64,000 nucleotides of DNA from Micavibrio sp. (GTDB taxonomy: Bacteria > Pseudomonadota > Alphaproteobacteria > Micavibrionales > Micavibrionaceae): assembly GCA_021604545.1 (NCBI GenBank), contig BQJE01000006.1:1-64000 (forward strand), read 5' to 3'. The notes below the pieces were generated by a model. The model was given only the letters and a program-made list of their open reading frames with translations. It ran no database searches and was not told the origin of the DNA. Shown here in pieces: positions 647 through 42,741 of the stretch (within the stretch, counting starts at the first letter, position 1; the number at the start of each line of letters is the position of its first letter). Position numbers and translations under genes: made by a program.

Positions 647-929
647 AAAAGGCAACAAAAGAGACTTTCGATTAAGCTATTATTAAGATAATCAGCGTAT
701 CGGCACCAACATCGCCGAGCAGACCGTCATTGTCATTTCCAGCAAAAGCCTTGATTGCCACTAGGTAATTACAGGCAGCTATTCGCAACCGAACAAAACA
801 CCTACCCCATTGATTTTCAATAACTATTGGCCGATTGTTAACCTTTATTTCAGGGCTTTCGCGTTAAAATGAATACATAAGCGTGCGCTTTTGAGACAAT
901 CAAGACGCAACTTGCGAAGGATCAGAGGG

Positions 930-3794
930 ATGAGAAAGCTGATGAGGCCGCTGGAAAAGCGGCTTATGTTAGACGCATCTATTACCGCTATTGGCGGCAA
1001 TGTCCTATGGCTTGATGGTGCCGACCAATCAACAATTTTAGATGCAGACGGCGATGATGCCAATTCTGGTGGTGCGTTTAGTGGTTCTGTTGCGACGTGG
1101 CAGGACAAATCCGGCAACAATAACGACCTTTCTCACGGTACACCAGCAAGACAACCCACTTACAATGCAGGTGCAAAAAATGGCAACGGCACAATCACAT
1201 TTGATGGTGGTGATGCTCTTTTTGCAACCGACGCCTCTATTCCGAGCCTGGATCTTTCAACAAATGGCTTCACCTTGTTTGCCATCGTAGATACAGCAAC
1301 AAGTGCCGGCAACAGAATCATCATCAATAAAGAAAGCTCTTACGAAATTGGCGTGAATGCTGGGCAGATTCAAGCAGCTATAAATACGGTTGCCGGAGGC
1401 AACTGGGCCTGGGGCGGCACGGCTAACAACGCTCTTTCAACAACATGGCATATTGTTGGATTCGAACACGCCAACACAACATGGCGCTTTCACCAAGATG
1501 GCAATGTCACCGAAGAAATTGTCCCGGCAAACAATCAAACCGGAAACATCACCCCGACCAATGATATTTTTACGGTTGGAGCCAGAGGTGCCGCCTCTCC
1601 CAATGGAAGCTGGTTCCTGGGTGATATGGCTGAAGTTATCTTATTCAATCGTGAATTAACATCCGATGAATATCACGATGTCGAAAATTACCTGGCCAAT
1701 AAATGGGGCATAGCCACTACCAATGCCACCCCGACAGAAGTTACAAGCAACACAGCGTATTTCAGCAACGCCGGAACAATAACGCTCGACACCTCTTTGC
1801 TATCCTATACCGATATAGACAACACGGATTCCCTACTGAGCTATGAAGTTACGACACTTGCGGGTCCAGGGATTTTGAAGCTCAACGGAACGGCTATGAA
1901 TGTCAACGAAACCTTTACACAACAAGACCTCATCAGCGGTAATGTAACCTACGACCACCTAACAAGTGTAACGAGCGCTGACAGTTTTCAATTCACAGTC
2001 ACAGACCGTCTGGTAACAACAGCTATTCAGACATTTAACATTGATATGGCGGCCACAGAAACGGCCAACAACCCGGTAACACTTGATGAAGGTGCCGTTA
2101 CCGATATCACCAATGCTGATTTGGCCCATACAGATAACGTCAGCCTTGGGTTTCGTGAGCAGTTGACGATCAGTTCATCATTAACCAATTCAAACCTTAC
2201 TGACTTCACCCTACTCCTGACCGAAGCTAATATATCCGCCAATTTCTGGGCAAATGTAAGGGCTGATGGCTCAGATATTTATGTGACGCTGGCTGATGGC
2301 GTGACCAAGCTCAACCGAGAGCTGGTGACCTTTAATAAAGTCGGCCAAACTATGGAGCTACATGTCAAGATTCCAACAATTTCTTCAACAGTTGATACCG
2401 ATCTTTATCTTTATTTTGGTGGCCTCACGTCAGAAAGCAATAACGCCGGAACCTGGGATGCCAACACACAAATGGTGCAGCATTTTGAAGAGACAGCAGG
2501 CACCGCAACAGATAGTACGGTAAATGGCCTTGATGGCACAGTGACAGCGGGGTCTTATGGTGCCGCCGGGCAAATAGGTGATGGTGTTTCTTTTCAAGCT
2601 GGGCGTAGCCTTACTGTTAATCAGGCCCTGGATACATCCAATACTTTCACGATAGATTTCTGGGCGGATTATACCGCGACCGGTACATGGCAGACAACGT
2701 TCTTCCAGAATGTTGGCGCTGCGTGGAACGAATTGCTGACGGTGAATGCCGCCACTGAACAATTTACAATCTGGACAAAAACAGGTGGTGCAGGTGTTGC
2801 TTTGGGTATGCAAGCTGATTATGTCGGCTGGCACAAATATACTTTTGCCTATGACGGCACCAATCTGGATATGTACAAAGATGGCGGGCTGGTGAATTCT
2901 ATTGTTTATAACTGGTCGTCTGCTCCAACGGGATTCCAAGCTGGCCAGCGCACTGATTCCAACCAGCCGACTAACGCCTTCTTTGATGAGTACACGTTCG
3001 ATACAACTGAGCGTTCTGCGGACTGGATTGCCGCTGAATATGCCATGCAAAATACACCCGCGGCATTCTACTCTCTTGGTGTTACTGAGGCTCTTCCAAC
3101 AACACTGACTTATACGCTAACTGACTTACCGGATAACGGAGATGTTACTCTAAACGGTGCCGTGCTTGGCCTCGGCGCTACATTTACACAAGGCGACATT
3201 GATGGGGGCCTGATTAAATACCAACACAATGACAGTGATACGACAATGGACAGCTTTGATTTTTTACTAAGCAGCAGCACCGGGAATGCACTACCTGCTG
3301 ACCGAACCTTTACACTGAATATTAATGCAATTAATGATGCACCGATTAACAACCCAGCTGAAGATTCCTCGGGTGATTCAAACAATAGGCCGTCACAAGC
3401 AAACGACGATGAACGCTCAGATTCAGGCCGCAACTCAGATAACGGCATTGCCTCAACGGGCGAAATTATTCGATCTATTCTTAACGGCTCCGGACAATCA
3501 TCTTTTTACGGTGATTCCTTAAGCGAAATTATGCGCAACAACAATACGCTTGAAGTCAGCCGCATTGTAGAATCCATCGACAACTCCCATGACGAACGTG
3601 ACGACAAAGTAACCAACGTTATCGAACGCGGCCTGAATGATGACAATCAAAATGACGATCCGGCCTGGTGGAAAATCCTTGACGGCATTATACCTGAAGA
3701 CAACGAAAGCGCACCTGACCTTGACGAAGAGATCGCCGCCGTCACGCAGCAATTCGATGCCAGCGTCCAGGAATTCATGGAGGCGCTGGAATGA
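930..3794 (+). CDS. LEPR-XLL-type LamG/DUF2341 surface protein 1
   Basis: Large secreted or surface protein of 954 aa. I chose the ATG at 930 because an AG-rich ribosome site precedes it and the protein then starts like its tandem paralogue (RKLMRPLEKRLMLDAS). That N-terminus fits the LEPR-XLL motif seen at the start of very large exported proteins; it is not a Sec signal. Approximate order: motif 1-16, LamG-like lectin fold 20-260, cadherin/CSPG-like repeat 263-370, DUF2341-like 403-497, second LamG 513-715, second CSPG-like repeat 725-805, polar linker, conserved C-terminal region 840-954 ending in an acidic helix. It overlaps the next gene by ATGA. The likely role is adhesion or glycan binding; the ligand is unknown. 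Confidence 0.85.
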   Translation: MRKLMRPLEKRLMLDASITAIGGNVLWLDGADQSTILDADGDDANSGGAFSGSVATWQDKSGNNNDLSHGTPARQPTYNAGAKNGNGTITFDGGDALFATDASIPSLDLSTNGFTLFAIVDTATSAGNRIIINKESSYEIGVNAGQIQAAINTVAGGNWAWGGTANNALSTTWHIVGFEHANTTWRFHQDGNVTEEIVPANNQTGNITPTNDIFTVGARGAASPNGSWFLGDMAEVILFNRELTSDEYHDVENYLANKWGIATTNATPTEVTSNTAYFSNAGTITLDTSLLSYTDIDNTDSLLSYEVTTLAGPGILKLNGTAMNVNETFTQQDLISGNVTYDHLTSVTSADSFQFTVTDRLVTTAIQTFNIDMAATETANNPVTLDEGAVTDITNADLAHTDNVSLGFREQLTISSSLTNSNLTDFTLLLTEANISANFWANVRADGSDIYVTLADGVTKLNRELVTFNKVGQTMELHVKIPTISSTVDTDLYLYFGGLTSESNNAGTWDANTQMVQHFEETAGTATDSTVNGLDGTVTAGSYGAAGQIGDGVSFQAGRSLTVNQALDTSNTFTIDFWADYTATGTWQTTFFQNVGAAWNELLTVNAATEQFTIWTKTGGAGVALGMQADYVGWHKYTFAYDGTNLDMYKDGGLVNSIVYNWSSAPTGFQAGQRTDSNQPTNAFFDEYTFDTTERSADWIAAEYAMQNTPAAFYSLGVTEALPTTLTYTLTDLPDNGDVTLNGAVLGLGATFTQGDIDGGLIKYQHNDSDTTMDSFDFLLSSSTGNALPADRTFTLNINAINDAPINNPAEDSSGDSNNRPSQANDDERSDSGRNSDNGIASTGEIIRSILNGSGQSSFYGDSLSEIMRNNNTLEVSRIVESIDNSHDERDDKVTNVIERGLNDDNQNDDPAWWKILDGIIPEDNESAPDLDEEIAAVTQQFDASVQEFMEALE

Positions 3795-6685
3795 AAAAAC
3801 TAATGCGACCTTTGGAAAAGCGTTTGATGCTTGATGCTTCACTAGTTGCCGATATTGGTGGCAGTGTTTTGTGGCTGGATGGTGATGATCAGGCCAGCAT
3901 TCTTGATGCTGACGGCGATGATGCCAGTTCCGGTGGCGCATTTAGCGGTACCGTCGCGACATGGCAAGACAAAAGCGGTAACAATAATGATATGACGCAA
4001 GGCAATGGCGCACGCGAGGCCACGTTCGTCAGCAATGTTCAAAACGGAAACAGTGTTCTTCGTTTTGATGGCGGTGATGATTTCTTATCCGGGAATGTTG
4101 GCGCTCTTGGTAATGAATACACAACCTTTGCTGTTGGATATTTTGGCCAGCTTAATCAGGGCGTCAATGACTATGATTATCTTGCATCGATCGGATCGGG
4201 CGGCGCTTATGTGATGAGTAGTATTTCGCGCACCGCAAGCAACTGGGGCCCTGGCGCAGATCGATACTATGCATATGATGGTTCAGCGCCGAGAGAAGGG
4301 CCGGTTATTGCGGGCCAAACATGGAATTTATATACGCAGGAAATTACACCGGGCGCGCCGCGTCACAGCTTAAGAATTGATGGTGCCAATCAGGTGGTTG
4401 AGGATAGCGCCGCCAACCACAATAACAATGGCCAGATTGGCATTGGTCATTTTAGCGTCAGCAACACACACCATCTGAATGGTGATGTTGGTGAAATTCT
4501 TATTTTTGATGGCGCGCTTTCAGCCGATTCCCGTCACGACATCGAAAATTATCTGGCGACTAAATGGGGATTGGCCAATACCAATATAGCCCCTGTGAAC
4601 ATAGAAAATACTGGCGCTCTGTTTAGCAATTCAGGCACGGTAACACTTGATAAAAATATGTTGCTGTCAACCGATGCGGATAACACGGATTCCAGATTAA
4701 TTTATACAGTAACAACCCTGGCAGCCAATGGAACAATGGAGCTGAATGGTGTCGCCATAAATGTGAATGACACATTCACGCAACAGGATATCATCAATGG
4801 CAATGTGACCTACGACCACAATCCCAACGTGGCCGGATCAGACAGCTTTCATTTCACAGTCAGTGATCGCTTTGATACAAGCGCCGTACAGACCTTCAAT
4901 TTTAATCCGGCTGCAAATCAAACAACAAATGCGCCGATAACCCTTGACGAAGGGGCCAGCACGGACATCACAAATACTGATCTGTCCGCCACCAACACAA
5001 ACGGTGTTGCCTGGTATGATGCAAACTGGGATTACCGCCAGAAACTCACCATTGATTCAGGAATGATTGGCTCAGATTTAACTAACTTCACCATGATGCT
5101 ATCGGACCATCATTTGTCCAGTGACTTTTGGGCACAGGTCAAAGCAGATGGATCGGATATAGTTGTCACCTCAGCCGATGGCACAACAAAACTAAGCCGC
5201 GATATGGTGAGCTTTGATAATGTCGGCGAATCTATCGAAATGCATATTAAAGTACCGCTCGTTTCTTCTACTGTTGATACCGATATCTACCTTTACTTTG
5301 GTAATGCGGCAGGCACAGAAACCAATGACACAGCAGCGTGGAGTGATTTTTCCGGCGTATGGCATTTGGATGAATTGGCCGGTAACGCGATAGATTCAAC
5401 CGTCAATGCCAATAACGGCACAATCAATGGTGGCCTTACGCAAGGTGTGACAGGGCATCTTGGGCGTGCCGCAGACTTTGACGATGCCAATGATTTAATC
5501 AGCATAGCAATGACCAAGGGGGCTATAAGTACCTTCAGTTTTTGGGCAACATGGGATGGCGCAGGCAATGACATGCCGATTTTAGCCGGACCTAACGGAG
5601 CCGGACCGGATCTTTTTCTTGCTGGCGGCAATGTTAGTTGGAACACATGGAATGGCTCCGCCAATGCGTTTGGCGCAACCCCTGCCGCGGCATCTGATGG
5701 TGCTTTCCATCACTATACGCTCGTTGTTGCTCCTGGTAATACGAACTTATACTTCGACAACACTCTTGTAGGAACTGCAACATATGCCGACCCTTCCGCC
5801 ACAACAATTTTTCAAATCGGCGGGATAGTGCCCTATACGTGGGGTGGGGCCATAGATGAGATGCGCGTTTCCAATGTGGCCCGCTCTGCCGACTGGGTTG
5901 CTGCAGAATATAACAATCAGATCGACCCGTCTTCGTTCTTCAGTAGCAACCTTGTTGAAACACAAGACGAAACGCTGACTTATACGGTCACAGATTTACC
6001 AAATAGCGGAGCGCTTAACTTGAATGGCGCTGCGCTTAACGTGAACGACATGTTTACCCAAGATGACATTGATAATAACCGTATCACTTATGTTCATGAC
6101 GACAGTGACACAACACTCGACAGTTTTGATTTCAGAGTAAGTAATATTTTGGGCAATGTTTTACCCGTTACGCAAACTTTTACGTTGAACATTAATGCGA
6201 TTAATGACGCGCCGATTAATAACCCGGTTGCAGACTCTTCCGATGATGCAGGGTCAAACAATAATTCATCACAAAGAAACGAGAATGATCGTACGAATTT
6301 AGAGATTGACTCTGATAACAGTATTTCCTCAACTGGCGAAATTATCCGCTCCATCTTAAGTGGTTCACAATCATCTTTCTACGGCAATGCACTGAATGAA
6401 ATTATGCGCACGCATAACACCTTTGAAATCAGCCGAACTCTAGAAGATATCAATGATTTCTATAACAAAAATGATGACAAGGTCATCAATGTGATCGAAC
6501 GCGGCCTGAATGATGAGGGCAATAAGGACGATCCAGCCTGGTGGGATCTTCTGGAAACCAACGAAGTGGCGTTACCCGAGGAAGAAACAGGGGCAGAAGC
6601 CTCTACGCCTGACCTTAGCGACCAAATAATGCAAGATTTAGGGACTTTTGACCAGAATCTTCAAGATTTTCTGGAAACTCTTTAA
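3791..6685 (+). CDS. LEPR-XLL-type LamG/DUF2341 surface protein 2
   Basis: 964-aa paralogue of the preceding gene, with the same domains in the same order: KLMRPLEKRLMLDAS motif at the start, LamG-like 20-260, CSPG-like 270-370, DUF2341-like 407-506, LamG 516-720, CSPG-like 727-808, linker, conserved C-terminal region 848-964. The ATG overlaps the TGA of gene 1, so the two are translationally coupled. The C-terminal region shares STGEIIRSIL, VIERGLND and DPAWW with gene 1 and is better conserved than the linker before it. This suggests a tandem duplication followed by divergence of the binding domains. No catalytic motif was seen. Function is inferred from domains only. Confidence 0.85.
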   Translation: MKKLMRPLEKRLMLDASLVADIGGSVLWLDGDDQASILDADGDDASSGGAFSGTVATWQDKSGNNNDMTQGNGAREATFVSNVQNGNSVLRFDGGDDFLSGNVGALGNEYTTFAVGYFGQLNQGVNDYDYLASIGSGGAYVMSSISRTASNWGPGADRYYAYDGSAPREGPVIAGQTWNLYTQEITPGAPRHSLRIDGANQVVEDSAANHNNNGQIGIGHFSVSNTHHLNGDVGEILIFDGALSADSRHDIENYLATKWGLANTNIAPVNIENTGALFSNSGTVTLDKNMLLSTDADNTDSRLIYTVTTLAANGTMELNGVAINVNDTFTQQDIINGNVTYDHNPNVAGSDSFHFTVSDRFDTSAVQTFNFNPAANQTTNAPITLDEGASTDITNTDLSATNTNGVAWYDANWDYRQKLTIDSGMIGSDLTNFTMMLSDHHLSSDFWAQVKADGSDIVVTSADGTTKLSRDMVSFDNVGESIEMHIKVPLVSSTVDTDIYLYFGNAAGTETNDTAAWSDFSGVWHLDELAGNAIDSTVNANNGTINGGLTQGVTGHLGRAADFDDANDLISIAMTKGAISTFSFWATWDGAGNDMPILAGPNGAGPDLFLAGGNVSWNTWNGSANAFGATPAAASDGAFHHYTLVVAPGNTNLYFDNTLVGTATYADPSATTIFQIGGIVPYTWGGAIDEMRVSNVARSADWVAAEYNNQIDPSSFFSSNLVETQDETLTYTVTDLPNSGALNLNGAALNVNDMFTQDDIDNNRITYVHDDSDTTLDSFDFRVSNILGNVLPVTQTFTLNINAINDAPINNPVADSSDDAGSNNNSSQRNENDRTNLEIDSDNSISSTGEIIRSILSGSQSSFYGNALNEIMRTHNTFEISRTLEDINDFYNKNDDKVINVIERGLNDEGNKDDPAWWDLLETNEVALPEEETGAEASTPDLSDQIMQDLGTFDQNLQDFLETL

Positions 6686-6779
6686 TCCAACAATCCCTTT
6701 AAATTTCCGAAATAGTCAGTTAAACTTATACACAAGGGAATTCTCCCTTTTGTTTCTTTAACTTACCTGTGTTTTTCTC

Positions 6780-8429
6780 TTGTTTGTTCACAGACTAAAA
6801 TCTTCCATAGCCCTGTCCGGGCTTGTTGTTTTGCTTTTTCTCTCCGGCTGTACAGGTTGGGGTGGAGGGCCTGTAACTTTTGATGAGCAGTTCAAGCTCT
6901 TACAGGGCGACCTAAAAGCGCTGTTTGGTATCGAAAACAAGCTTGAAAAACCCCTGACCCTATACGAAGCGATGGCACGCGGGATCAAGTACAATCTAGA
7001 TCACCGTCTGATCGCAATGGAAGAGGTTATCGCCGGCGGAGAAATCAATTTACAAGCCGCTGAAATTTTTCCATCTGTTACAGCCGAAGCGCGCCATGTA
7101 GGCCGGCGCAGTGACAGCGCATCATCCAGCCAGTCAGTCATAACAGGAACACAATCTCTGGAACCATCAATCTCAACCGAACGGCATCGCAAGACAGCAT
7201 CACTGGAAGCCAGCTGGAATGTCATTGATGCCGGACTGGCCGTGATCCGCACCAAACAAGTCAGTGACGAAGCACAAATTTCTATGGAACGCCGCCGCAA
7301 AGTCATACATAATATTATACAGGACGTGCGCTTCGCTTATTGGCAGGCCGCCAGTTCGCAGATGCTCTCCGGCCGGATCGATCAATTGCTCGAAGAAGGC
7401 AAGCTAGCCGCAAACCGTATTCAGCAAACAGAAGACGAAGGGCTGGCCCCGCCCGCCGAAACCCTGCAGTCACAATCACGTTTGCTCGAGGCCATGCATG
7501 AATTGATGGTCTTAAGATCGCAGTTGTCCTTCGCCAAAACTGAGCTGGCCAGCCTGGTCAACCTGCCACCATCAGCGGAATATACATTGGCCATTAACGA
7601 AGAAAGCTGGGGCAAAGACGCAAAGATCCCTGAGCTCACCGTCCCTGCCGAAGAACTTGAGCGCATCGCCCTCATCATCCGTCCGGAAATGCGCGAGGAA
7701 GTAGTGATGGCTCGCTTTGCTACAAACCATGTACGCGAGACTATTCTTGAAACTTTTCCTGGCCTTGAAATGTTGGTTGGGCGAAATTACGACAGCAATA
7801 AATTTTTAGTTGATAACAGATGGACAAATTTTTCTTTGGGCCTTACACAAAACTTGATCAAGATTTTTACACTTCCCATGCGCTTCAATCAAGCTGAGAA
7901 CCGGGTCAAACTGGCAGCACTAAAGCGCCAGGCCTTGGGAGCGGCCGTTATGGCTCAGGTCCATGTCTCGGTCATTCGCTTCAAGCTGGCAGAAGAGCGC
8001 TACCAGATCATGCAGAAATTACATGGCGTTAATACACGCATGGTCCATCTGGCCAAATCACAAGATATTGCCGAAACATTGAGCGGCGCCGAATTGCTCG
8101 AGGTTGAGATGGATGAGCTTCTGACAACAATTCGTATGCATGTAGCGCACGCTGAACTGCAAAACTCTTACGGTCGCCTAATTAATACACTCGGCATTGA
8201 TCCACTGCCTGAAACGACCGAAAATGTTAGTACGTCAGAGCTGGCCGCTATCATTGAGCAGCGCTTTGCAACGCTTGATGAAAATACACTAAAAAACTAT
8301 ATCGGAATTATACAGGAAACCGGAAAAGGCTGCTCTACCGATAGCGTTAATGAGACCCTTGGGCTAAACCCCGCTCTGGTAGCGCATTCCACATATAAAC
8401 CCAAATTTATTCTTACATTAAAAGAATAA
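6780..8429 (+). CDS. TolC-family outer-membrane efflux lipoprotein
   Basis: 549-aa outer-membrane channel of the TolC/OEP family. The N-terminus has a hydrophobic stretch ending in a lipobox (FLSGC), so the mature protein is probably lipidated at that cysteine. The body has the two long helical OEP repeats (LYEAMARGIKYNLDHRL near the start, an equivalent helix-rich half after residue 280). The start is TTG with no clear ribosome site, so it is uncertain by a few codons. The stop shares one base with the ATG of the HlyD gene that follows (TAATG). With its neighbours it should form the outer-membrane exit of a tripartite exporter. Confidence 0.85.
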   Translation: MFVHRLKSSIALSGLVVLLFLSGCTGWGGGPVTFDEQFKLLQGDLKALFGIENKLEKPLTLYEAMARGIKYNLDHRLIAMEEVIAGGEINLQAAEIFPSVTAEARHVGRRSDSASSSQSVITGTQSLEPSISTERHRKTASLEASWNVIDAGLAVIRTKQVSDEAQISMERRRKVIHNIIQDVRFAYWQAASSQMLSGRIDQLLEEGKLAANRIQQTEDEGLAPPAETLQSQSRLLEAMHELMVLRSQLSFAKTELASLVNLPPSAEYTLAINEESWGKDAKIPELTVPAEELERIALIIRPEMREEVVMARFATNHVRETILETFPGLEMLVGRNYDSNKFLVDNRWTNFSLGLTQNLIKIFTLPMRFNQAENRVKLAALKRQALGAAVMAQVHVSVIRFKLAEERYQIMQKLHGVNTRMVHLAKSQDIAETLSGAELLEVEMDELLTTIRMHVAHAELQNSYGRLINTLGIDPLPETTENVSTSELAAIIEQRFATLDENTLKNYIGIIQETGKGCSTDSVNETLGLNPALVAHSTYKPKFILTLKE

Positions 8430-9256
8430 TGGTAAACTTAATGATGCGATTTATTTTTGTTGCCCTATTCCTAGCAGGGCTTTTGCCCTTCTCCTCTCCG
8501 GCGCAGTCTGCGGATGCCGCTGAAATTCAAACTGTGCTTGTAGCTAATCAAGAAGCTACGCTTGCCAGCCCCATGAAGGGGCAGATTGTAAAGCTTGACT
8601 TTTTTAATGGTGATCAATTTTCCAAGGATGACGTTTTAGTTGCTTTTGATTGCCGCATTATCGAAGCACAATATGCGGGCGCAGCAGCAAGGTTAGAAGG
8701 CGCAAACGCCACATTGGGGACCAAGAAAAAACTCAAAGAATTAAAGTCAGCATCGAAGCTGGAATACGCATTGGCTGTTGCCGAAGCAAAACAGGCAAAT
8801 GCGGAAGCACGCGAATACAAGGTCCAGAAAGAGCTTTGCGTTATTAAAGCGCCCTATGACGGGCGCGTCACCGGCAAGGATGCCAATTTGCATGAAACAG
8901 TTGAATCCGGACAACCGCTTTTGAAAATTGCGTCTATGGACAAATTACAGGCACAGCTTCTTGTGCCGTCAGTCTGGTTAAGCTGGTTGAAAACGGGTTC
9001 AGCGCTAAGGCTAAAGATTGATGAAAACGGCAAAAGCTATGCGGCACATATTATTCGCATCGGCGGCGAGGTTGATGCCGTTAGTCAATCTATCATGGTG
9101 GTTGCCGAGCTGGATGAGCGCGAAGATGATTTGCTGCCGGGCATGAGTGGCACAGCCTATTTCAACACCCCTACCCCTAGAAAAGAAGCGCAAAAAACGA
9201 AGCTACAGCCAGCCTCACAAGCAGGCCTTCTGCAGCCAAAGCAAGATCATGAATAA
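8429..9256 (+). CDS. HlyD-family periplasmic adaptor
   Basis: 275-aa membrane-fusion (adaptor) protein. Signal peptide at the N-terminus (hydrophobic core, then SPAQSADA). A biotinyl-lipoyl-like half follows (QATLASPMKGQIVKL), a short coiled-coil helical hairpin about 85-135, the second lipoyl half (APYDGRVTGKDANLHE) and a beta-barrel domain. It is short for the family, as in RND-like periplasmic adaptors. The start overlaps the TolC-like stop by one base; a second ATG four codons in is an alternative. It overlaps the next gene by 8 bp, so all four exporter genes look translationally coupled. It probably bridges inner-membrane partners to the TolC-like channel. Confidence 0.85.
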   Translation: MVNLMMRFIFVALFLAGLLPFSSPAQSADAAEIQTVLVANQEATLASPMKGQIVKLDFFNGDQFSKDDVLVAFDCRIIEAQYAGAAARLEGANATLGTKKKLKELKSASKLEYALAVAEAKQANAEAREYKVQKELCVIKAPYDGRVTGKDANLHETVESGQPLLKIASMDKLQAQLLVPSVWLSWLKTGSALRLKIDENGKSYAAHIIRIGGEVDAVSQSIMVVAELDEREDDLLPGMSGTAYFNTPTPRKEAQKTKLQPASQAGLLQPKQDHE

Positions 9257-10622
9257 ACCATCAAAAGCTGCCAATCAGGAAAAACCGCCACAAGACAGCA
9301 AACTGGTGGCTCTGACGACGTTGTTACTGCTCGAAGAAAATGCCCGCCATCGCATGAGCAAAGCCGAGCTTGCCTTTATGATGGTCAATGAAACCCACCG
9401 CCTCCTTCCCTATCGGCAATGTGTGTTCTGGCGTGGCGACGAGAAGGTCAAAATTGAATCAGTTTCCGGCCTGTCGACGATTGATAAAGATTCTCCATCC
9501 CTGATCTGGCTGCGGCGCATCATAAAAAAACTCCCACGCTCTGAACATGTTGTACAGGGCATGACATCAAACGATGTCGACAAAGAAGACCACAAAGACT
9601 GGGGCGAATGGGTGTCAGGCCATGTCGCCGTTGTATGGCTTAAAAGCCCTGATGGGCACGCCCTTGGCGGGTTGTGGATGGACCGCGAAACGGCCTTCAC
9701 ACCCGGAGAGCTAAAACTACTCGCACAGCTTGCTGACGCTTACGGCCACGCCTGGGACAGGCTGGAGCGAGAGCATCAGCCGTGGCGAACAAAACTACTT
9801 GCCGCCTTACGCGTAAAAAAATCAAGATGGGTTGTTGCGGCACTTATATGCGCCCTCATGCTTTTCCCGGTACGGTTGTCCGTGACAGCACCGATGGAAG
9901 TTGTAGCGCGTGACCCCTTCGTTGTAAGCGCTCCGCTCGATGGCGCAATCAAAGATGTTTCTGTGCAGCCCAACACACTCGTGAAAAAAGGTGATGTTCT
10001 ATTCACCATGGATGACACAATTTTAAAAAACCAGGTTGAAGTTTCACGCAAGGCCCTAGACATTGCGCTGGCTACCTATTCGAAAGTTTCACGCGAGGCC
10101 TTTAATGATCCACGCAGTAAAACCGATCTGGCCGTTCTTAAGGCTGAGTCAGAGGCCAAAAAAGTTGATTTTGAATATGCGCAGGACTTGCTAAAACGCG
10201 CTACTGTCTTAGCTGACCGTGATGGTGTGGCAGTGTTTACCGATGCAAATTCCCTGCGCGGCATGCCCGTACAAACAGGAACGCGGGTAATGATGATTAC
10301 TGACCCCAAAGATACGGAGCTACTCATCCGCATTCCGGCCAAAGCAATGATTCTGATTGACGATCAAAAACCGGCACGCATTTTTCTTAATGTTTCACCA
10401 CTGAATAGTCTAAAGGCTTCCATACGTACCGTCAGTTACGAAACAACACCAGATCCAGATGGTTTACTGACATACAAAATTCGCGCGAGCCTTGAAGGTG
10501 AATCAGAAGCACCACGCGTTGGCCTAAAGGGAACTGCCCGCGTTTATGGCGGCCGAACTATGTTTGCTTATCAAATGTTGCGCCGGCCTCTAATCGCATT
10601 TCGTGCTATGTTAGGGGTATAA
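9249..10622 (+). CDS. GAF-like/HlyD adaptor fusion protein
   Basis: 457-aa inner-membrane protein. The chosen ATG at 9249 overlaps the end of the preceding gene by 8 bp; upstream in-frame codons would lie deep in that gene. Residues about 15-175 look like a GAF-type cytoplasmic domain (LLLLEENARHRMSKAELAF, GGLWMDRETAF). One transmembrane helix sits around 190-210 (VVAALICALMLFPVRLSV). It is followed by a periplasmic HlyD part with split lipoyl halves (VSAPLDGAIKDVSVQPN; GVAVFTDANSLRGMPVQ) around a short helical hairpin. A cytoplasmic GAF joined to an adaptor suggests export is tied to an internal signal or a partner protein, but no ligand can be read from sequence. Confidence 0.8.
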   Translation: MNKPSKAANQEKPPQDSKLVALTTLLLLEENARHRMSKAELAFMMVNETHRLLPYRQCVFWRGDEKVKIESVSGLSTIDKDSPSLIWLRRIIKKLPRSEHVVQGMTSNDVDKEDHKDWGEWVSGHVAVVWLKSPDGHALGGLWMDRETAFTPGELKLLAQLADAYGHAWDRLEREHQPWRTKLLAALRVKKSRWVVAALICALMLFPVRLSVTAPMEVVARDPFVVSAPLDGAIKDVSVQPNTLVKKGDVLFTMDDTILKNQVEVSRKALDIALATYSKVSREAFNDPRSKTDLAVLKAESEAKKVDFEYAQDLLKRATVLADRDGVAVFTDANSLRGMPVQTGTRVMMITDPKDTELLIRIPAKAMILIDDQKPARIFLNVSPLNSLKASIRTVSYETTPDPDGLLTYKIRASLEGESEAPRVGLKGTARVYGGRTMFAYQMLRRPLIAFRAMLGV

Positions 10623-10624
10623 GA

Positions 10625-12760
10625 ATGTCCGAGGCCGTCGCCGATACGCCACTGCCCAGACTTCGTAACGACATCAACCTTCATCGTGGTCCAAGCGAAA
10701 GTGACGGCTCACCAACATGGACGCTTTATGATCCGCCATCCAACAGGTTTTTTCGCGTTGGATGGCTGGAATTTGAATGCCTGGCCCGCTTTGCTCGATC
10801 ACAGACGGTTAGCGAGGTGGTACGATCCGTCAACACTGAAACACCGCTTCAGGTCTCGGATGAGGACGTGGGGGATCTGGTGCAGTTTCTGATTTCGAAT
10901 GAACTAATCGTCGTCGTCACGTCCCAGGCAACTGAACGCTTTACAAAATTGGAAGGGCTTAGACAAAAAGCGTGGTGGAATAAGTTTCTCCACGGTTACC
11001 TGTTCTTTATTATTCCACTAATACGGCCAGACAGGTTTTTGCAAAGAACCCTCCCCTATATCCGCCCACTCTTAAGCCAAAAGTTTTTTGTCTCCATGTT
11101 GTGTCTTCTTGGCTATGGATTTTATCTAACGCTCAATCGATGGGATGAATTCGCTAATACCTTCATGCATTTTTTTACATGGGAAGGATTAACATTTTAT
11201 ATCATTACGATTTCAGGCGTTAAAATCCTGCATGAAATGGGGCACGCTTTTGTGGCGACCAAAGCCGGTGTGCGTGTGTCCTCCATGGGTGTGGCGTTTA
11301 TCGTTCTCTACCCGGTTTTATTCACCGAAACCACAGGGGCGTGGAAGCTTCCCGATCGCCATAGACGGCTCCTCATAGGCGCTGGCGGGGTGATGGCAGA
11401 GATTTGTGTCGCGGCGATTGCGCTGCTGCTTTGGCATATCTTGCCTGATGGATCGGCGCGCAGTGTTGCCTTTTTTGTTGCCACCGTATCATTGGCTGGC
11501 TCATTCCTGATCAACCTTAATCCGTTTATGCGTTTTGATGGCTATTATCTGCTCTCTGACGGTTTGGGAATGGACAATCTACAAGGGCGCGCTTTTGCCC
11601 TGGCAAAATGGAACATGCGAAGGTTTTTGTTTGGCTGGTCTGATCCCGTACCGGAAGATTTTAAAAAGCCGCTGCGCCGCCTCCTCTATGTATACGCCTA
11701 CGGCACATGGCTATACCGTTTCTTCCTGTTTCTTGGGATCGCTGTTTTGGTTTATACTTTATTCTTTAAACCTCTGGGGCCGTTCTTAATGGCTTTGGAG
11801 CTCGCATGGTTTATCGGACTTCCTATATACAGGGAAGTCATTATTTGGTGGAAGGAGCGCAGAAAAATGACCTGGAACTCTGCAAGCAAGCGTACAGTCG
11901 GGACTCTTGGTTTCCTGCTGGTTCTGGCCTTTATCCCCTGGCATAGCACGGTACGCGTACCCTCTTACGTTCAGGCAAAAGATTACACACGACTACACCC
12001 ACCAGCGCCGGCGCGTATTGCAGAGGCGCTTGTAGAGCAAGGACAAAGAGTTAAATCAGGCGATATTCTTTTAAAACTTGAATCCCCTGTGCTTGACCAT
12101 CGCATTGCACAGGCAAAAAGCTCGCTTGAAACTTTAAAGGCACAAACATTACGTGAAGCGACAGATAGAAAATTGATTCATCGTGGTCAGGTGCGCAATC
12201 AACAAATTTCTGAGGCACAAGCCGCATTTGATGGCCTACAACAGCAAAAAGACAGGCTCATCATGCGCGCACCTTTTGATGGCGTTGTGGCGGAGAAGGC
12301 TTTTGATCTACACAAAGGGCGCTGGGTCGGTGAAAAGCAATCACTGATCCATTTGGTAAAATTTGACCGTGCTGTGCTGCGCGGTTATGTGCGTGAAAAT
12401 GATATTCGCCGTATTGAGAACGGCGCAACAGGGCGGTTTTACCCGGATACCGGCATATCCGGTGCGATGACAGTTCAAGTGAAGGAAATCAGCCGCACCA
12501 ATGCCTCCACGATTGAACGCCCGGATCTGGCTTCCACCTATGGCGGATCGGTGGCGATTGCACAATCCGGTGGTAACAGCAGCGCACTTGTTCCGCACGA
12601 TGCAGTTTATGCTGTTTTGATGGAGCCTGTAAGTCCAGAGACCGCTGTGCCGCCGCATCTTTTATCTGGTGAAGTTAAATTAAAGGGTGAGCGCAAAAGT
12701 TTTGCGGCGCGCGCCTTTACCCGTATAGCAGCACTTGTAGTCCGTGAGTCTGGATTCTAG
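10625..12760 (+). CDS. PqqD-like/M50 site-2 protease/HlyD fusion
   Basis: 711-aa polytopic membrane protein. Residues about 1-95 (with YDPPSNRFFRVGWLEFE and a final QFLISNELIVV) resemble PqqD-type peptide-recognition domains. A multi-span M50 metalloprotease core follows, with zinc motif HEMGH at about 203-207 and the second motif NLNPFMRFDGYYLL with Asp about 305; both sets are intact. After more helices, residues from about 447 form an HlyD adaptor (HPPAPARIAEALVEQGQRV; MRAPFDGVVAEKAFDLHKG). The family is known from peptide and bacteriocin modification/export loci. Here the neighbours are LEPR-XLL proteins, so it may read and cleave their N-terminal motif in the membrane (inference). The start is 2 bp after the previous stop. 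Confidence 0.85.
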   Translation: MSEAVADTPLPRLRNDINLHRGPSESDGSPTWTLYDPPSNRFFRVGWLEFECLARFARSQTVSEVVRSVNTETPLQVSDEDVGDLVQFLISNELIVVVTSQATERFTKLEGLRQKAWWNKFLHGYLFFIIPLIRPDRFLQRTLPYIRPLLSQKFFVSMLCLLGYGFYLTLNRWDEFANTFMHFFTWEGLTFYIITISGVKILHEMGHAFVATKAGVRVSSMGVAFIVLYPVLFTETTGAWKLPDRHRRLLIGAGGVMAEICVAAIALLLWHILPDGSARSVAFFVATVSLAGSFLINLNPFMRFDGYYLLSDGLGMDNLQGRAFALAKWNMRRFLFGWSDPVPEDFKKPLRRLLYVYAYGTWLYRFFLFLGIAVLVYTLFFKPLGPFLMALELAWFIGLPIYREVIIWWKERRKMTWNSASKRTVGTLGFLLVLAFIPWHSTVRVPSYVQAKDYTRLHPPAPARIAEALVEQGQRVKSGDILLKLESPVLDHRIAQAKSSLETLKAQTLREATDRKLIHRGQVRNQQISEAQAAFDGLQQQKDRLIMRAPFDGVVAEKAFDLHKGRWVGEKQSLIHLVKFDRAVLRGYVRENDIRRIENGATGRFYPDTGISGAMTVQVKEISRTNASTIERPDLASTYGGSVAIAQSGGNSSALVPHDAVYAVLMEPVSPETAVPPHLLSGEVKLKGERKSFAARAFTRIAALVVRESGF

Positions 12761-12924: not shown

Positions 12925-14475
12925 TTATCTTTCGCAATCACTCTGCGCGCTTACCAGGCCCCAGCCATAGGTTTTATCATGACCAGGAGCACCGAGATCT
13001 TTAGTATTCTGCTTCATCGATTCCACAATAAGGTCGTGAGAAATTGAACCGTTGCGCAAAAGGTTTTGCGCCGCCACCGCCACGGCATGCGGCACAGCAT
13101 AGGACGTGCCTGATTTATAGGCACCGCCACCACCATCTTGTGCAGACCATATATCAACTCCGGGTGCTGCGAAATCGACATAGGCCCCACGATTGGCTTG
13201 CTTATAAACGTGCGAAGCCGCATCGATGGCGGTCACGGCAATGACGCCTTTTAATGATGCCGGATAGACCGGTGGTGCCTGCGGCCCGTTATTACCTACT
13301 GCTGCAAAAACCAGCCCCCCCTTTGATGATGTTTTTTCAAAGACGCGGCCCAAAACACGGTTCGGTTTATCACCAGCCAGTGAAATATTAATCAGCCGCA
13401 CTTTGTTTTTCAGCATCCAGTCCAGCGCCTGCGCCACTGCTTCGGCTGTAGCGATATCGTCACCTTTTGGTGCTTTCCTTAGAACCGTTGCAGCATAAAG
13501 TTTGCTGCCCGGAAGCATACCGAAATAGCCACTTTCCGGTGAATTTCCAATCAGAATAGAGGCAATCGCGGTGCCATGGGCACGATCAGGCTGGCCCTTA
13601 TTCTCGAGAAAGTTTTTAGTGGCAATGTTCTGCCCTTTAAAAGCTGAATGGCTCTGGTCGATATCACCATCAATCAAACCAATGGAAATCTGCTTGATAT
13701 TTTTGAGACAGCCCGGTGCTGCGGGCCACTTAACCTTGGCTGGCGCATAAAGGCGTGGCGCGCTGGAGGAATGGTAATGATGGTTGCGGTCAATCTCTGC
13801 GTTTGGAAACGCCTCACGCATTTCGTCTATGATATCGACAATATTGCCATCAACAACGTCAAGAACCAACAGCACATCACCGAAGGCCGCAAGGTTGTGG
13901 CGGCGTAAAATAGGGTATCCCCTTTCCTTCGCATAGGATTCAATTTGGTTTGCAACATCACGCAAGGCCAAAATCAAAATTTCACCGGGCTCGGCATCAG
14001 CGGACGACATAACTGGCTGCGGTCTTTCTTCTTCATAAGGGCAAAGACGAACCTTAATATCCGTGCGCTCGACAACTTTATCGGTTCTGTGCGCATCAAC
14101 CAGAACGATATGGTAATGTTCGCTATCGTATATAGCTTTCTCGGTAGGGATCTGAACCATCAAGCGGTTTTCGCTTTTGTTGAGAACGCGCAGCGGCAAA
14201 ACATTGCTGTTATCTGCCAAGGCCGGCACAACACCATCCAGCGCCGAAAGAGAGCGGCCATTGATCGCCATCATATCGCCGGGACGGGCGCAGGCACTGG
14301 CAATGCCGGTAATTTCAGGCTTTGCTTCCGGTGGCTGGCGGCGTTCAGGTTCGCGCCCTTCACGATCCGGCACATCATCAGCCGCACCTGGTAGCGGCGC
14401 ATTCGGATCCACTTGTGCCAAAGACGGCGCGGCAATCGCAAAAATTAAAACAGTGAAAAGAATGAGCGTGCGCAT
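12925..14475 (-). CDS. Secreted S8 (subtilisin-like) serine protease
   Basis: 516 aa. The start at 14475 gives a clean signal peptide (MRTLILFTVLIFAIAAPSLA) and comes right after the anti-sigma stop. Residues about 40-130 resemble an Ig/IPT-like domain (ITGIASACARPGDMMAING); about 170-235 look like an I9-type propeptide. The catalytic domain follows with Asp about 269 (IGLIDGDID), His about 300 (AHGTAIASIL), the oxyanion Asn (AVGNNGP) and Ser about 458 (GTSYAVPHA), all intact. It is the last gene of a five-gene minus-strand operon with an ECF sigma and anti-sigma factor. A role in processing surface proteins or in signal transduction through the anti-sigma factor is inferred, not shown. Confidence 0.88.
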   Translation of the reverse strand: MRTLILFTVLIFAIAAPSLAQVDPNAPLPGAADDVPDREGREPERRQPPEAKPEITGIASACARPGDMMAINGRSLSALDGVVPALADNSNVLPLRVLNKSENRLMVQIPTEKAIYDSEHYHIVLVDAHRTDKVVERTDIKVRLCPYEEERPQPVMSSADAEPGEILILALRDVANQIESYAKERGYPILRRHNLAAFGDVLLVLDVVDGNIVDIIDEMREAFPNAEIDRNHHYHSSSAPRLYAPAKVKWPAAPGCLKNIKQISIGLIDGDIDQSHSAFKGQNIATKNFLENKGQPDRAHGTAIASILIGNSPESGYFGMLPGSKLYAATVLRKAPKGDDIATAEAVAQALDWMLKNKVRLINISLAGDKPNRVLGRVFEKTSSKGGLVFAAVGNNGPQAPPVYPASLKGVIAVTAIDAASHVYKQANRGAYVDFAAPGVDIWSAQDGGGGAYKSGTSYAVPHAVAVAAQNLLRNGSISHDLIVESMKQNTKDLGAPGHDKTYGWGLVSAQSDCER

Positions 14476-14476
14476 A

Positions 14477-15070
14477 TTACTTCTCCACCTGCGCGCTCTC
14501 AACAAGATCGTCGCGACTCTTGAGGGCCTGCACCGCTTGCTGAATATCATCATCTGTTGAAAGGTGGTAAACACCAAGCGCTGACGGCCCTTCCACAATG
14601 TTCAAATTAAGACCGAGCAACAAACCGCGAATATCGGATTCTGTCGCATCGGGCGCAAACGTCACGCTGATCTCTGCTTCGGACTGCCCACCGGCTGCTA
14701 CCAATGTGCCGCCCTGCATCCAGTGCGGCGCGACAATAATCGTCTGGATCATCAGCAATACACAAGCCGCGACAGCAATCATGCGCCATGTACGGTTTTG
14801 CTCTGATGTAATCCTTGAGCGCGCCCGCGCAATCGGATCGCTTTTCAGCTTTTCTTCCTCAAGAGATTTTTGTAAACGCTTAAGGCCCAGCTCACCGGGT
14901 GAGTTTTCAATCTCATAGGCCTTCACCTCGCGGCGCAAACCTTCAAGATAACGCAGATCATCTTTCAAAGACGGATCGTCAATGATCGCCTGTTCGACTT
15001 TGTCTTTTTCTTTGCCTCCCAATGTTCCGTTCACATAGAAGGGCAAAAGTTCCATGATGTCCTTACTCAT
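14477..15070 (-). CDS. Membrane anti-sigma factor with propeptide-like periplasmic domain
   Basis: 197 aa. The ATG at 15070 overlaps the sigma-factor stop (ATGA) and has a strong GGAGG site. The cytoplasmic N-terminus (ELLPFYVNGTLGGKEKDKVE) is the usual compact anti-sigma helix bundle without the HxxxCxxC zinc motif. One transmembrane helix follows at about 98-120 (MIAVAACVLLMIQTIIV). The periplasmic tail (SVTFAPDATESDIRGLL ... VEGPSALGVYHL ... AVQALKSRDDLVESAQ) resembles subtilase propeptide/I9-like folds. It probably holds the co-encoded ECF sigma factor at the membrane. The propeptide resemblance is by eye and suggests direct contact with the S8 protease next to it. Confidence 0.75.
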   Translation of the reverse strand: MSKDIMELLPFYVNGTLGGKEKDKVEQAIIDDPSLKDDLRYLEGLRREVKAYEIENSPGELGLKRLQKSLEEEKLKSDPIARARSRITSEQNRTWRMIAVAACVLLMIQTIIVAPHWMQGGTLVAAGGQSEAEISVTFAPDATESDIRGLLLGLNLNIVEGPSALGVYHLSTDDDIQQAVQALKSRDDLVESAQVEK

Positions 15071-15647: not shown

Positions 15648-16853
15648 TTAGGGCCTATGTATCGTGCGAGGAACCGAGGCCCCAAGCACCTTGCCGCTTT
15701 TACTAAAAGCGCGTACATGCCACTGATACATCCCGCCGGGCTGTAAATGCGCCAGCGACAATGCCTGCAATGACAATGTTAAATCCTTGCCTGTGACCAG
15801 CTTACCGGTCAGCGGCACATTCGGATTGTCTTTAAAAATTTCCACCTGATAGGCATGCGCGCCTTCAATGGCCTGCCAGGAAAAGACAGTACCTTTTCCA
15901 AGCCTTGCCCCATCGGCTGGGCCAATGACATTCATATTGGCGGCGACCAGATCGGATTTGTCCTTATTATCCTGCAGTACAAAATAACGCAGGATCGGAA
16001 TTTCAAAGCCGGTGGTCGTGTCCTGCACCGAAAACGATACCAAATGCAAGCCGCTCAGCTTTGTTGGCAAAGGTGGACTGACAATGCGCGTGCGGCCTTC
16101 ACCGGAGCTTACCAGTTGTTGGCGTACGACCTGAAGCACGCGGCGTCCGCCGCCGCCCAGACTGGCCGAAGCATCAACCACGCGCCATTCGCCACGCAGA
16201 AGACCGTTATTGTTAAACGATACATCAGCCACAGCATGAAGCTGGTCGCCCTGACGTACAACATCGGTGCGCGATGCGTTCTCAAAAGAAAGCTCAATCC
16301 GGCGCACAGCCAGATCGCCAGTGCCACCCAATGTGGCGAACAGGCTAATCGTACCCGGCACTGTCGTTTGCGTATCGGTAAACAGCCTGCGGATCGTGAC
16401 CGTTCCGGGCACCGCTCTTGAAATTGTTTGGGCCTGCGCCGGTGTCAGGTTAAAGGTTTCAGTAAAGACCAATATTTCCGACTCACCAACCATGCGGAAA
16501 ATCCCTGTCTGCATAATCGCGCCGCCCAGCGTGGCAACCGTTACACCGCTAATGCGCAGCTCGGCCAGCGCCGAAGACGTGACGCGTTGCGCCGTGGCTA
16601 CTGTCTCTGTCCTGTTCACCCGCCATGTGACATTGATCGCTGCCGGGTTTTTGATTGAGACATTAACCATCGCCGGTGTCGGCGTCACTGTATTCACATC
16701 GGCGCGCGCCGCACCAGCCATGCCCACTATGGACACCCCAATCACAGCCAGCACCAGAGCCAGCCTAGCGGCTAAGCGAAAACGGCGCCCTGACCCGAAA
16801 AACGGTAAAGACCTGGTAATTTGTTTCATCCTGTATTGCATTTGCGTTTCCAT
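15648..16853 (-). CDS. Secreted protein with Fn3-like C-terminus, unknown function
   Basis: 401 aa, no family recognised. The ATG at 16853 has a GGAGG site 6 nt upstream and lies 89 bp inside the end of the preceding gene. The N-terminus is basic, then a hydrophobic stretch (ALVLAVIGVSIVGMAGAARA) that looks like a late signal peptide. The rest is beta-rich: an N-terminal domain repeating Thr/Val strands, a middle part, and an Fn3-like end (YQVEIF ... MYQWHVRAFSKSGKVLG). It sits between a beta-barrel-like protein and the ECF sigma factor. A surface or periplasmic partner of the barrel protein is the simplest guess. Confidence 0.7.
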   Translation of the reverse strand: METQMQYRMKQITRSLPFFGSGRRFRLAARLALVLAVIGVSIVGMAGAARADVNTVTPTPAMVNVSIKNPAAINVTWRVNRTETVATAQRVTSSALAELRISGVTVATLGGAIMQTGIFRMVGESEILVFTETFNLTPAQAQTISRAVPGTVTIRRLFTDTQTTVPGTISLFATLGGTGDLAVRRIELSFENASRTDVVRQGDQLHAVADVSFNNNGLLRGEWRVVDASASLGGGGRRVLQVVRQQLVSSGEGRTRIVSPPLPTKLSGLHLVSFSVQDTTTGFEIPILRYFVLQDNKDKSDLVAANMNVIGPADGARLGKGTVFSWQAIEGAHAYQVEIFKDNPNVPLTGKLVTGKDLTLSLQALSLAHLQPGGMYQWHVRAFSKSGKVLGASVPRTIHRP

Positions 16854-36849: not shown

Positions 36850-36926
36850 AGGAACCTCCTTTTCAAATAGCAGGAGAATTATAAAACATCATAAATAAGT
36901 TTGAAAGTTTAAGTGAGTTCAAAAGA

Positions 36927-37041
36927 TCTGGCAGCGAACTACTCTCCCGCGCCTTAAGACGAAGTACCATCGTCGCTAAGAGGTTTCACGGCCGAGTTCG
37001 GGATGGGATCGGGTGTTTCACTCTCGCTATAACCACCAGAT
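36927..37041 (-). rRNA. 5S rRNA
   Basis: About 115 nt ending the operon. Recognised from CCCGATCCCATCCCGAACTC and the closing stem TCTGGTGG / GCTGCCAGA. The gene is flanked by long inverted repeats (AGTGAGTTCAAA on both sides), which extend its terminal stem in the precursor. Confidence 0.93.
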
Positions 37042-37112
37042 CATTTGAACTCACTTTATAATGATGAAAATTTCCAATGTCTTTTCTAATCTGAATCCAA
37101 ACACTTTTTGCT

Positions 37113-37138
37113 GCGAACAAACCTGCGGTTTGCTTCGC
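37113..37138. repeat. REP-like bulged palindrome (copy d)
   Basis: GCGAACAAACC / GGTTTGCTTCGC in the 5S-23S spacer, with one bulged base. Confidence 0.65.
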
Positions 37139-37186
37139 TTGCGGCGGATTTACCGCTGCGCATGGTTGCAAGGGACTTTTTAGTTT

Positions 37187-37212
37187 GCGAACAAAACGAT
37201 GTTTTGCTTCGC
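37187..37212. repeat. REP-like bulged palindrome (copy e)
   Basis: GCGAACAAAAC / GTTTTGCTTCGC, 48 bp from copy d and in the same orientation. Confidence 0.65.
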
Positions 37213-37229
37213 GTTCCTTTGCGGGTGAA

Positions 37230-39976
<2,747 letters not shown>

Positions 39977-40272
39977 TCAAGCCACGCGCAGGGATAAATC
40001 CGCTGCGTGTGTTTTGACTCAGATTAGTTAGACATTGGAGATTCATAAACATACAACCCGTATCGCAAGCGACACAAATCATATGTCCTATGATATCTTT
40101 TCATCATTATTATTGCTTTTTTAGAATGATGCAGCACTTGGGAGTGCCCCATCAGCAATAATAAATCAAACCTATTTACGATGTTTAAGAACCGAGAAAA
40201 TGAATTTCTCGTTTAAATCTTCCGAAGAAGATTTAGAAGAAAAAACCAAAAAATCAAATTCCTTGGGGAATT

Positions 40273-40348
40273 TGGTGGACCCTAACGGGATCGAACCGTT
40301 GACCTCCTGCTTGCAAAGCAGGCGCTCTCCCAGCTGAGCTAAGGGCCC
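40273..40348 (-). tRNA. tRNA-Ala (TGC), CCA encoded
   Basis: 76 nt, anticodon loop CTTGCAA, acceptor GGGCCCT / AGGGTCC with one G-U pair, CCA encoded. Usual place in the 16S-23S spacer. The 296 bp between it and 23S hold nothing else that I can name. Confidence 0.95.
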
Positions 40349-40474
40349 TTTATGTTTAAGAACGCGGCATTAGCCGCGGCGTTCAGTCGAACGCTCTTGT
40401 CACCAAGAGGCCGCGACTGCGACCCGCCAACCGTTTGGCGCTCTTTATCTAAAACCATCTTCGCATAACGCAGA

Positions 40475-40551
40475 TGGTGGGCCCGGGAAGACTTGAACTT
40501 CCGACCTCACGCTTATCAAGCGTGCGCTCTAACCAACTGAGCTACGAGCCC
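40475..40551 (-). tRNA. tRNA-Ile (GAT), CCA encoded
   Basis: 77 nt, starts GGGCTCGTAGCTCAGTTGG, anticodon loop TTGATAA, CCA encoded. Intact copy; a 5' fragment of the same gene lies between it and 16S. Confidence 0.95.
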
Positions 40552-40553
40552 GC

Positions 40554-40579
40554 GCAAAGCAAAACAACGTTTTGTTTGC
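40554..40579. repeat. REP-like bulged palindrome (copy f)
   Basis: GCAAAGCAAAAC / GTTTTGTTTGC directly upstream of the tRNA-Ile gene. Confidence 0.6.
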
Positions 40580-40591
40580 AAAAATTAAAAG

Positions 40592-40668
40592 ATTACGGGC
40601 GAGTATTTTTTAGAATACGAACAAATGCTGCGCATTTGCTTCGCGCCAACTGAGCTACGAGCCCGTAA
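40592..40668 (-). repeat. Partial tRNA-Ile copy joined to a REP-like element (copy g at 40617-40644)
   Basis: The minus strand reads TTACGGGCTCGTAGCTCAGTT, i.e. the first 19 nt of tRNA-Ile, then breaks into a palindrome GCGAAGCAAATGC / GCATTTGTTCGT, and closes with CTCGCCCGTAA, an inverted copy of the head. Only the first fifth of the tRNA is present. It cannot make a tRNA. Confidence 0.65.
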
Positions 40669-40767
40669 TAAACTAACTACGGACCGCCAGGAAAAACTCA
40701 AGATCCGGTCGATCCAAATCCAGAAAGAAGAGATAGGCGGGCAACAGTGCCTTAAAGCACCAAACAC

Positions 40768-42260
<1,493 letters not shown>

Positions 42261-42741
42261 TTAATCCCATCATATCTCAAGAAATCTTAAGTTCTTTAAA
42301 ATACAAAGTATTTTAGTTAGAACATGCTTGCGTTTTGAGACATTACGTATCTTGCGACACATAACGTCTGCGTATACTGCGTTAGCTGAAATACACATGC
42401 AAACATGTTCTTATTTGTGCGTTCAATGCACCCGATCAAAAAAAGGCAAAAGCCTCCTCAAGATCACTAAGCACTGCTGCCTGCGTATCTCTTCTTTCCG
42501 TTTCACGATGTCCAAGAACCATACTCAATCCGCAAAAAGCGAACCGAGAAAGAAGAAGTGAAAATCCTCACCTCTTATTACTCGCTTCCCAATACTTTGT
42601 AATGATGGCCGCACTATAGCCTGATTAACAAAGGGTCGTCAAATTTGTCCAAATCTTCTTTGCCCAAATCTTCTTTGCTCTGAGGCCCGAACCCCTCACA
42701 AAAAACAAGGCGCAGAAGCTGTCCGCGCCATGTGTTCGAGG
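42261..42741 (-). other. rRNA operon leader
   Basis: About 480 bp between the predicted rRNA promoter and 16S. It should hold the leader, antitermination and processing signals; a flanking stem with the 16S 3' side is likely, but I could not pick out exact boxes. No gene supported. Confidence 0.5.

Follow-up and report, generated by a model that had tools for sequence, protein, structure and literature searches.

The window analysed here is the whole 64,000-nt stretch of a Micavibrio sp. contig, and it carries genes for a sigma factor, an anti-sigma factor and an S8 protease that form one operon on the minus strand (positions 15621-12925; Table 1). The sigma and anti-sigma genes share a 4-nt overlap, and the S8 gene starts one base past the anti-sigma stop codon. 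According to Pfam the sigma factor has Sigma70 regions 2 and 4 only, which places it among the ECF sigma factors; it is 69-97% identical to its counterparts in seven loci with the same operon. Directly upstream of the sigma gene lies the gene for a 401-aa exported protein, an arrangement found in all seven loci with long flanks (44-80% identity). A second exported protein of 688 aa, for which a Pfam search gave no match, is kept in the same seven loci (44-86% identity). These seven loci belong to Kiloniella, Curvivirga and Alphaproteobacteria assembled from metagenomes, and all five genes have the order seen in the window; the close relatives of the source genome that bear public names are likewise Alphaproteobacteria.

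The operon adjoins a secretion-type cluster (positions 891-12760) with genes for two surface-type proteins followed by TolC-, HlyD-, GAF-HlyD- and M50-HlyD-like genes. Both surface-type proteins have the N-terminal sequence RPLEKRLMLDAS, and the first contains Cadherin_3 and LamG domains; the M50-HlyD-like gene, last in the cluster, resembles daptide-type metalloproteases. Elsewhere in the window there is a complete rRNA operon (16S, two tRNAs, 23S, 5S; positions 36926-42262, minus strand).

Table 1. Features of the sigma/anti-sigma/S8 protease operon (coordinates refer to the window)
Feature	Position	Strand	Evidence
Exported protein, 688 aa	16765..18831	-	Conserved operon member
Exported protein, 401 aa, upstream of sigma	15648..16853	-	Conserved operon member; weak fn3/Ig match
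ECF sigma factor, 184 aa	15067..15621	-	Sigma70_r2 9.5e-13, Sigma70_r4_2 6e-12
Single-pass membrane anti-sigma factor, 197 aa	14477..15070	-	N-terminal helices 3-77, TM 92-117
Juxtamembrane linker of the anti-sigma factor, residues 118-130, MQGGTLVAAGGQS	14681..14719	-	Predicted disordered
Periplasmic tail of the anti-sigma factor, propeptide-like, residues ~131-197	14480..14680	-	AlphaFold fold, structural matches, PF22148 in homologues
Exported S8 protease, 516 aa	12925..14475	-	PF00082 5.7e-32, 111.6 bits; triad conserved
Prodomain of the S8 protease itself (cis), residues ~159-240	13756..14001	-	L031 homologue model; profile match to the tail

The anti-sigma factor stays below the cut-offs of the curated families, with 16.3 bits against zf-HC2 (cut-off 22.2) and 29.1 bits against the NF052375 antisigma model (cut-off 100). 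Its name is therefore based on gene position, the helical N-terminal domain and the transmembrane helix. An AlphaFold model built with 22 homologues consists of this helical domain, the transmembrane helix, a disordered linker and a confidently predicted domain at residues 134-195. The C-terminal tail beyond the single membrane helix is periplasmic and contains the motifs quoted in the earlier note. In the linker, pLDDT is below 50 at residues 119-124 and 126-128. Residues of the LVAAG/TAS type recur in this segment among the anti-sigma homologues, and it may be the site at which the protein is cleaved.

The tail is predicted to fold as b-a-b-b-a-b with pLDDT of 90-96, the arrangement of subtilase propeptides. 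Its top structural matches are pro-subtilisin E (Z 7.5), the inhibitor POIA1 in a structure where it is bound to subtilisin (Z 7.2) and the subtilisin BPN' prosegment (Z 7.2); the prodomains of PC1/3 and EpiP are also among them (Z range 7.5-6.9), and subtilase propeptides or POIA1 account for nine of the ten best matches. The fold is of the common ferredoxin-like type, for which a Z of 7.5 is not diagnostic by itself. By sequence, the Fervidolysin_NPro-like family PF22148 matches 8 of 16 homologous tails in Pfam searches (best E 1.3e-6), two of which exceed the curated cut-off of 21 bits with 29.1 and 24.3. The window tail alone reaches 13.5 bits (E 0.1), below that cut-off; given this weak score, its assignment draws on the homologues and the predicted fold. 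The resemblance to subtilase propeptides proposed in the earlier note is thus borne out at the level of the family, and the lack of a propeptide fold, which it had named as an outcome that would speak against it, was not what the modelling returned.

The S8 protease was described in that note as secreted and with an intact triad, and both points are confirmed. Residues D269, H300 and S458, together with the oxyanion residue N395, are conserved in alignments with its relatives, in keeping with its place in family S8. From the N-terminus the protein comprises a signal, an IPT/TIG-like domain, its own prodomain and the catalytic domain. The IPT/TIG-like beta domain (positions 14038-14316) contains two cysteines and is absent from other clades. 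The prodomain of the protease was not part of the earlier note and is added by the present analysis. All partner S8 proteases compared by alignment have one just ahead of the catalytic domain. To look for competition by the anti-sigma tail at the catalytic domain, the tail and S8 protease of the Curvivirga homologue (L031) were folded as a read-through chain. In this model the canonical place is occupied by the protease's own prodomain, and prodomain plus catalytic domain superpose on unautoprocessed pro-subtilisin E over 337 residues (Z 39.9).

A profile of the tails matches the profile of the partner-protease prodomains with an hhalign score of 27.9, whereas none of 200 column shuffles exceeded 14.7 and the reversed control reached 13.1. 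Searches of PDB sequences with the tail alone or with a 16-member tail profile (HMMER) found no propeptide, as the tail is too divergent for this method. The S8 prodomain profile likewise found no convincing relative in PDB or Pfam, hence the kinship of tail and prodomain rests on the shuffle-controlled profile comparison. Together, profiles and predicted structures support the tail as a subtilase-propeptide-type domain; since the protease already has its own prodomain in cis, the tail would be a second copy acting in trans.

In subtilase propeptides the sheet binds the catalytic domain and the C-terminal residues run through the active site. In an alignment to the predicted model, the last residue of the window tail, K197, corresponds to residue 72 of the 77 in the subtilisin prosegment. 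We infer that, to plug the active site, a tail would need about eight residues beyond Q194 of the last strand or its equivalent. Such an extension of at least 8 residues is present in 14 of 48 tails, and 34 have 5 or fewer. Most tails, including that of the window, are thus probably too short to plug, which makes docking or cleavage likelier than classical full inhibition. According to the title of PDB entry 3a3o, subtilisin was still crystallised in complex with a Tk-propeptide shortened by five residues at the C-terminus.

The association between tail and protease was assessed in loci gathered by searches of relatives, of the class and phylum and of a single order in another class, and by a scan of genome contigs, with duplicates removed. 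Weak matches without a tail or probably in a wrong frame (L025, L078) were set aside or scored negative. An S8 gene is adjacent, that is, the next gene or the next but one, in 60 of 71 tail-bearing loci, whereas none of 50 distinct loci with a tail-less anti-sigma factor from the same class has S8 beside it. These 50 come from two control sets: the zf-HC2 set includes several proteins unlike the single-pass membrane type, and a second, better matched set was added. One tail-bearing locus (genome G098) surfaced in both sets, and S8 is present there. Fisher's exact test gives 1.6e-23 for the difference, a value that is indicative rather than calibrated, given the kinship among the species and the repeated sampling of some genera. 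The earlier note had regarded a general lack of neighbouring S8 genes among homologous pairs as evidence against its proposal; the loci collected show the opposite. In the source genome (2.15-Mb assembly, completeness 99.98%), the sole S8 gene adjoins the sole tail-bearing anti-sigma gene.

The linkage is kept in three gene orders: sigma, anti-sigma and S8; S8 followed by sigma and anti-sigma (L047, L054); and a divergent S8 gene with a convergent anti-sigma gene (L018, L055). That it persists through these changes of order speaks for selection on the pairing rather than for simple descent of a single arrangement. The linkage of tail and S8 across Pseudomonadota is not due to chance.

The remaining 11 tail-bearing loci are of two kinds. 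Five have a C14 caspase-like protease instead of S8, and the use of the tail is therefore not confined to S8 enzymes. These lie outside Alphaproteobacteria (L068:8953-9807, L069:5653-7401, L070:5879-7525, L115:1532-2542, L117:1284-3146). In L069 and L070 the C14 gene is a gene or two further off, and the intervening genes encode a second small transmembrane protein that also bears the tail and a membrane protein with multiple TM helices. Six loci have neither protease (L074, L076, L078, L121, L122, L123), a count that includes the probably spurious L078. No sigma or protease genes were detected within several kb of the tail-bearing proteins in L076:8908-9672, L121:8864-9550 and L122:8689-9579; among the genomes with these orphans, two (G390, G836) also have an S8-linked copy.

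These observations suggest a model in which the operon is a self-sensing switch: the tail docks the matured S8 protease in trans, the linker is cut and the sigma factor is freed. The anti-sigma factor would retain its ECF sigma factor at the membrane, with the propeptide-type domain displayed on a flexible periplasmic linker, and the S8 protease would be exported with its cis prodomain covering the catalytic domain. On maturation the protease would shed this prodomain, and the freed surface could then dock the anti-sigma tail. Because most tails appear to end short of an active-site plug, an enzyme docked in this way would stay catalytically competent and could clip the nearby membrane-proximal linker in a site-1 cleavage. 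Intramembrane and cytoplasmic proteolysis would follow and release the sigma factor, which would drive the operon. The comparisons above bear out the operon architecture, the predicted tail fold, its kinship with S8 prodomains, the recurrent linkage and the cis prodomain of the protease. Docking of the tail, the need for prior maturation, the cut, the freeing of sigma and the autoregulation are proposals, and the model assumes its site-1 and site-2 protease steps. Of the reading in the earlier note, the propeptide-type tail and its genetic tie to S8 are thus supported, and a protease held by the tail or cutting it stays at the level of a proposal. Speaking against the switch are the sub-threshold score of the window tail, the commonness of its fold, the tail-bearing loci with C14 or neither protease, and tail and S8 distances that show no excess correlation. 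We give the switch as a whole about an even chance of being correct.

The main rival to docking and cleavage is that the tail acts as an inhibitor and tether. A membrane-anchored domain like I9 or POIA1 would silence the mature protease at the inner membrane, and its titration would alter the hold on sigma without any cleavage, much as in the response of RsiV to lysozyme. POIA1, a free propeptide-like inhibitor, ranks second among the structural matches of the tail, RsiV is a precedent for an anti-sigma outer domain that binds an enzyme (PMC4183432), and the 14 tails with the longer extension could reach the active site. However, plugging of subsites S1-S4 is probably beyond the reach of most tails, the window's included, and a single membrane helix with a disordered linker would probably be a poor relay of binding in the absence of cleavage. 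We consider this explanation rather unlikely.

Alternatively, the tail may sense another signal and merely share ferredoxin-like or propeptide ancestry, in which case the adjacent protease, mostly S8 and elsewhere C14, would be a product of the regulon. The switch of protease class in five loci fits this explanation, as do the orphan tail-bearing anti-sigma factors and the co-divergence of tail and S8, which shows no excess over that of the anti-sigma N-terminal domain when the distance correlation is corrected for sigma (partial r 0.31 vs 0.27), a comparison that was in itself uninformative. Yet it would then be a coincidence that an anti-sigma factor linked to S8 has a sensor resembling an S8 prodomain in both fold and profile, and likewise that none of the tail-less controls has S8 beside it; on balance we regard it as unlikely. 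Subtilase propeptides are also established folding chaperones. A separate subtilase chaperone is known from Aeromonas (ASP-ORF2, PDB 3wqb), but a tail that serves as an intermolecular folding helper for exported S8 and couples folding capacity to sigma is very improbable, as every aligned S8 partner keeps its own prodomain, in the canonical cis position in the one modelled, and a second helper is unneeded.

The proposed docking and cleavage can be compared with several known systems. The RseA/DegS/RseP system of sigma-E also has a single-pass anti-sigma factor with a periplasmic domain, which is not known to be of the propeptide type. Its site-1 protease is DegS, an enzyme of the PDZ-trypsin type. 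RsiV of the Bacillus subtilis sigma-V system is an ECF anti-sigma factor with an extracytoplasmic domain that serves as an enzyme receptor: once the enzyme is bound the anti-sigma factor is lost, the ligand is a foreign lysozyme and the site-1 cut is made by signal peptidase (PMC4183432). In contrast, the candidate ligand here is a subtilase encoded in the same operon and the domain is propeptide-like. In SREBP activation, S1P with SPRING provides a subtilase-type serine protease that is gated by an inhibitory prodomain and makes the first of two activating cuts (PMC11231238). That system is eukaryotic and has no sigma or anti-sigma factor; the prodomain there is part of the protease, whereas in the case studied here the regulator bears a copy. 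The ECF54 sigma genes have conserved subtilase and caspase-related (CHAT) neighbours and are described without an anti-sigma factor (PMC8999054), but the present operon has an anti-sigma gene, overlapping that for sigma, and its product carries the propeptide domain. Finally, PF22148, I9 propeptides and POIA1 are related to the tail by shared fold, by profile similarity of its homologues and as structural neighbours. PF22148 domains precede an S8 catalytic domain within one polypeptide. The tail instead forms the C-terminal end of a membrane anti-sigma factor, and S8 is encoded by a gene of its own; the tail would act on the protease in trans, and in most loci it appears to stop short of an active-site plug.

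Regulated proteolysis of anti-sigma factors is known, and an enzyme-receptor domain of the propeptide type has not been described before in the literature searched. There we found no account of a propeptide-bearing anti-sigma factor or of a sigma/anti-sigma/S8 unit, which agrees with the statement of the earlier note that no named system has this layout; the 2021 re-classification of ECF sigma factors (NAR), outside that literature, may list the neighbourhood.

If the proposed switch is real, it would represent a bacterial parallel to the subtilase-gated regulated proteolysis of animals (S1P/SREBP) and a case of a protease prodomain captured as a transcriptional receptor. Only for a minority of ECF/anti-sigma pairs are the signal and the site-1 step known. 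In this operon the sensor domain itself points to its probable ligand, the neighbouring S8 protease, and the signal is therefore directly testable in culturable species such as Kiloniella and Curvivirga. More broadly, with a confidence slightly short of even, we suggest that such operons may constitute a widespread proteobacterial signalling class, in which a captured propeptide on the anti-sigma factor would be the receptor for the protease of its own operon, loss of the cis prodomain would be read as transcription, and a C14 enzyme would have been swapped in for S8 in some lineages.
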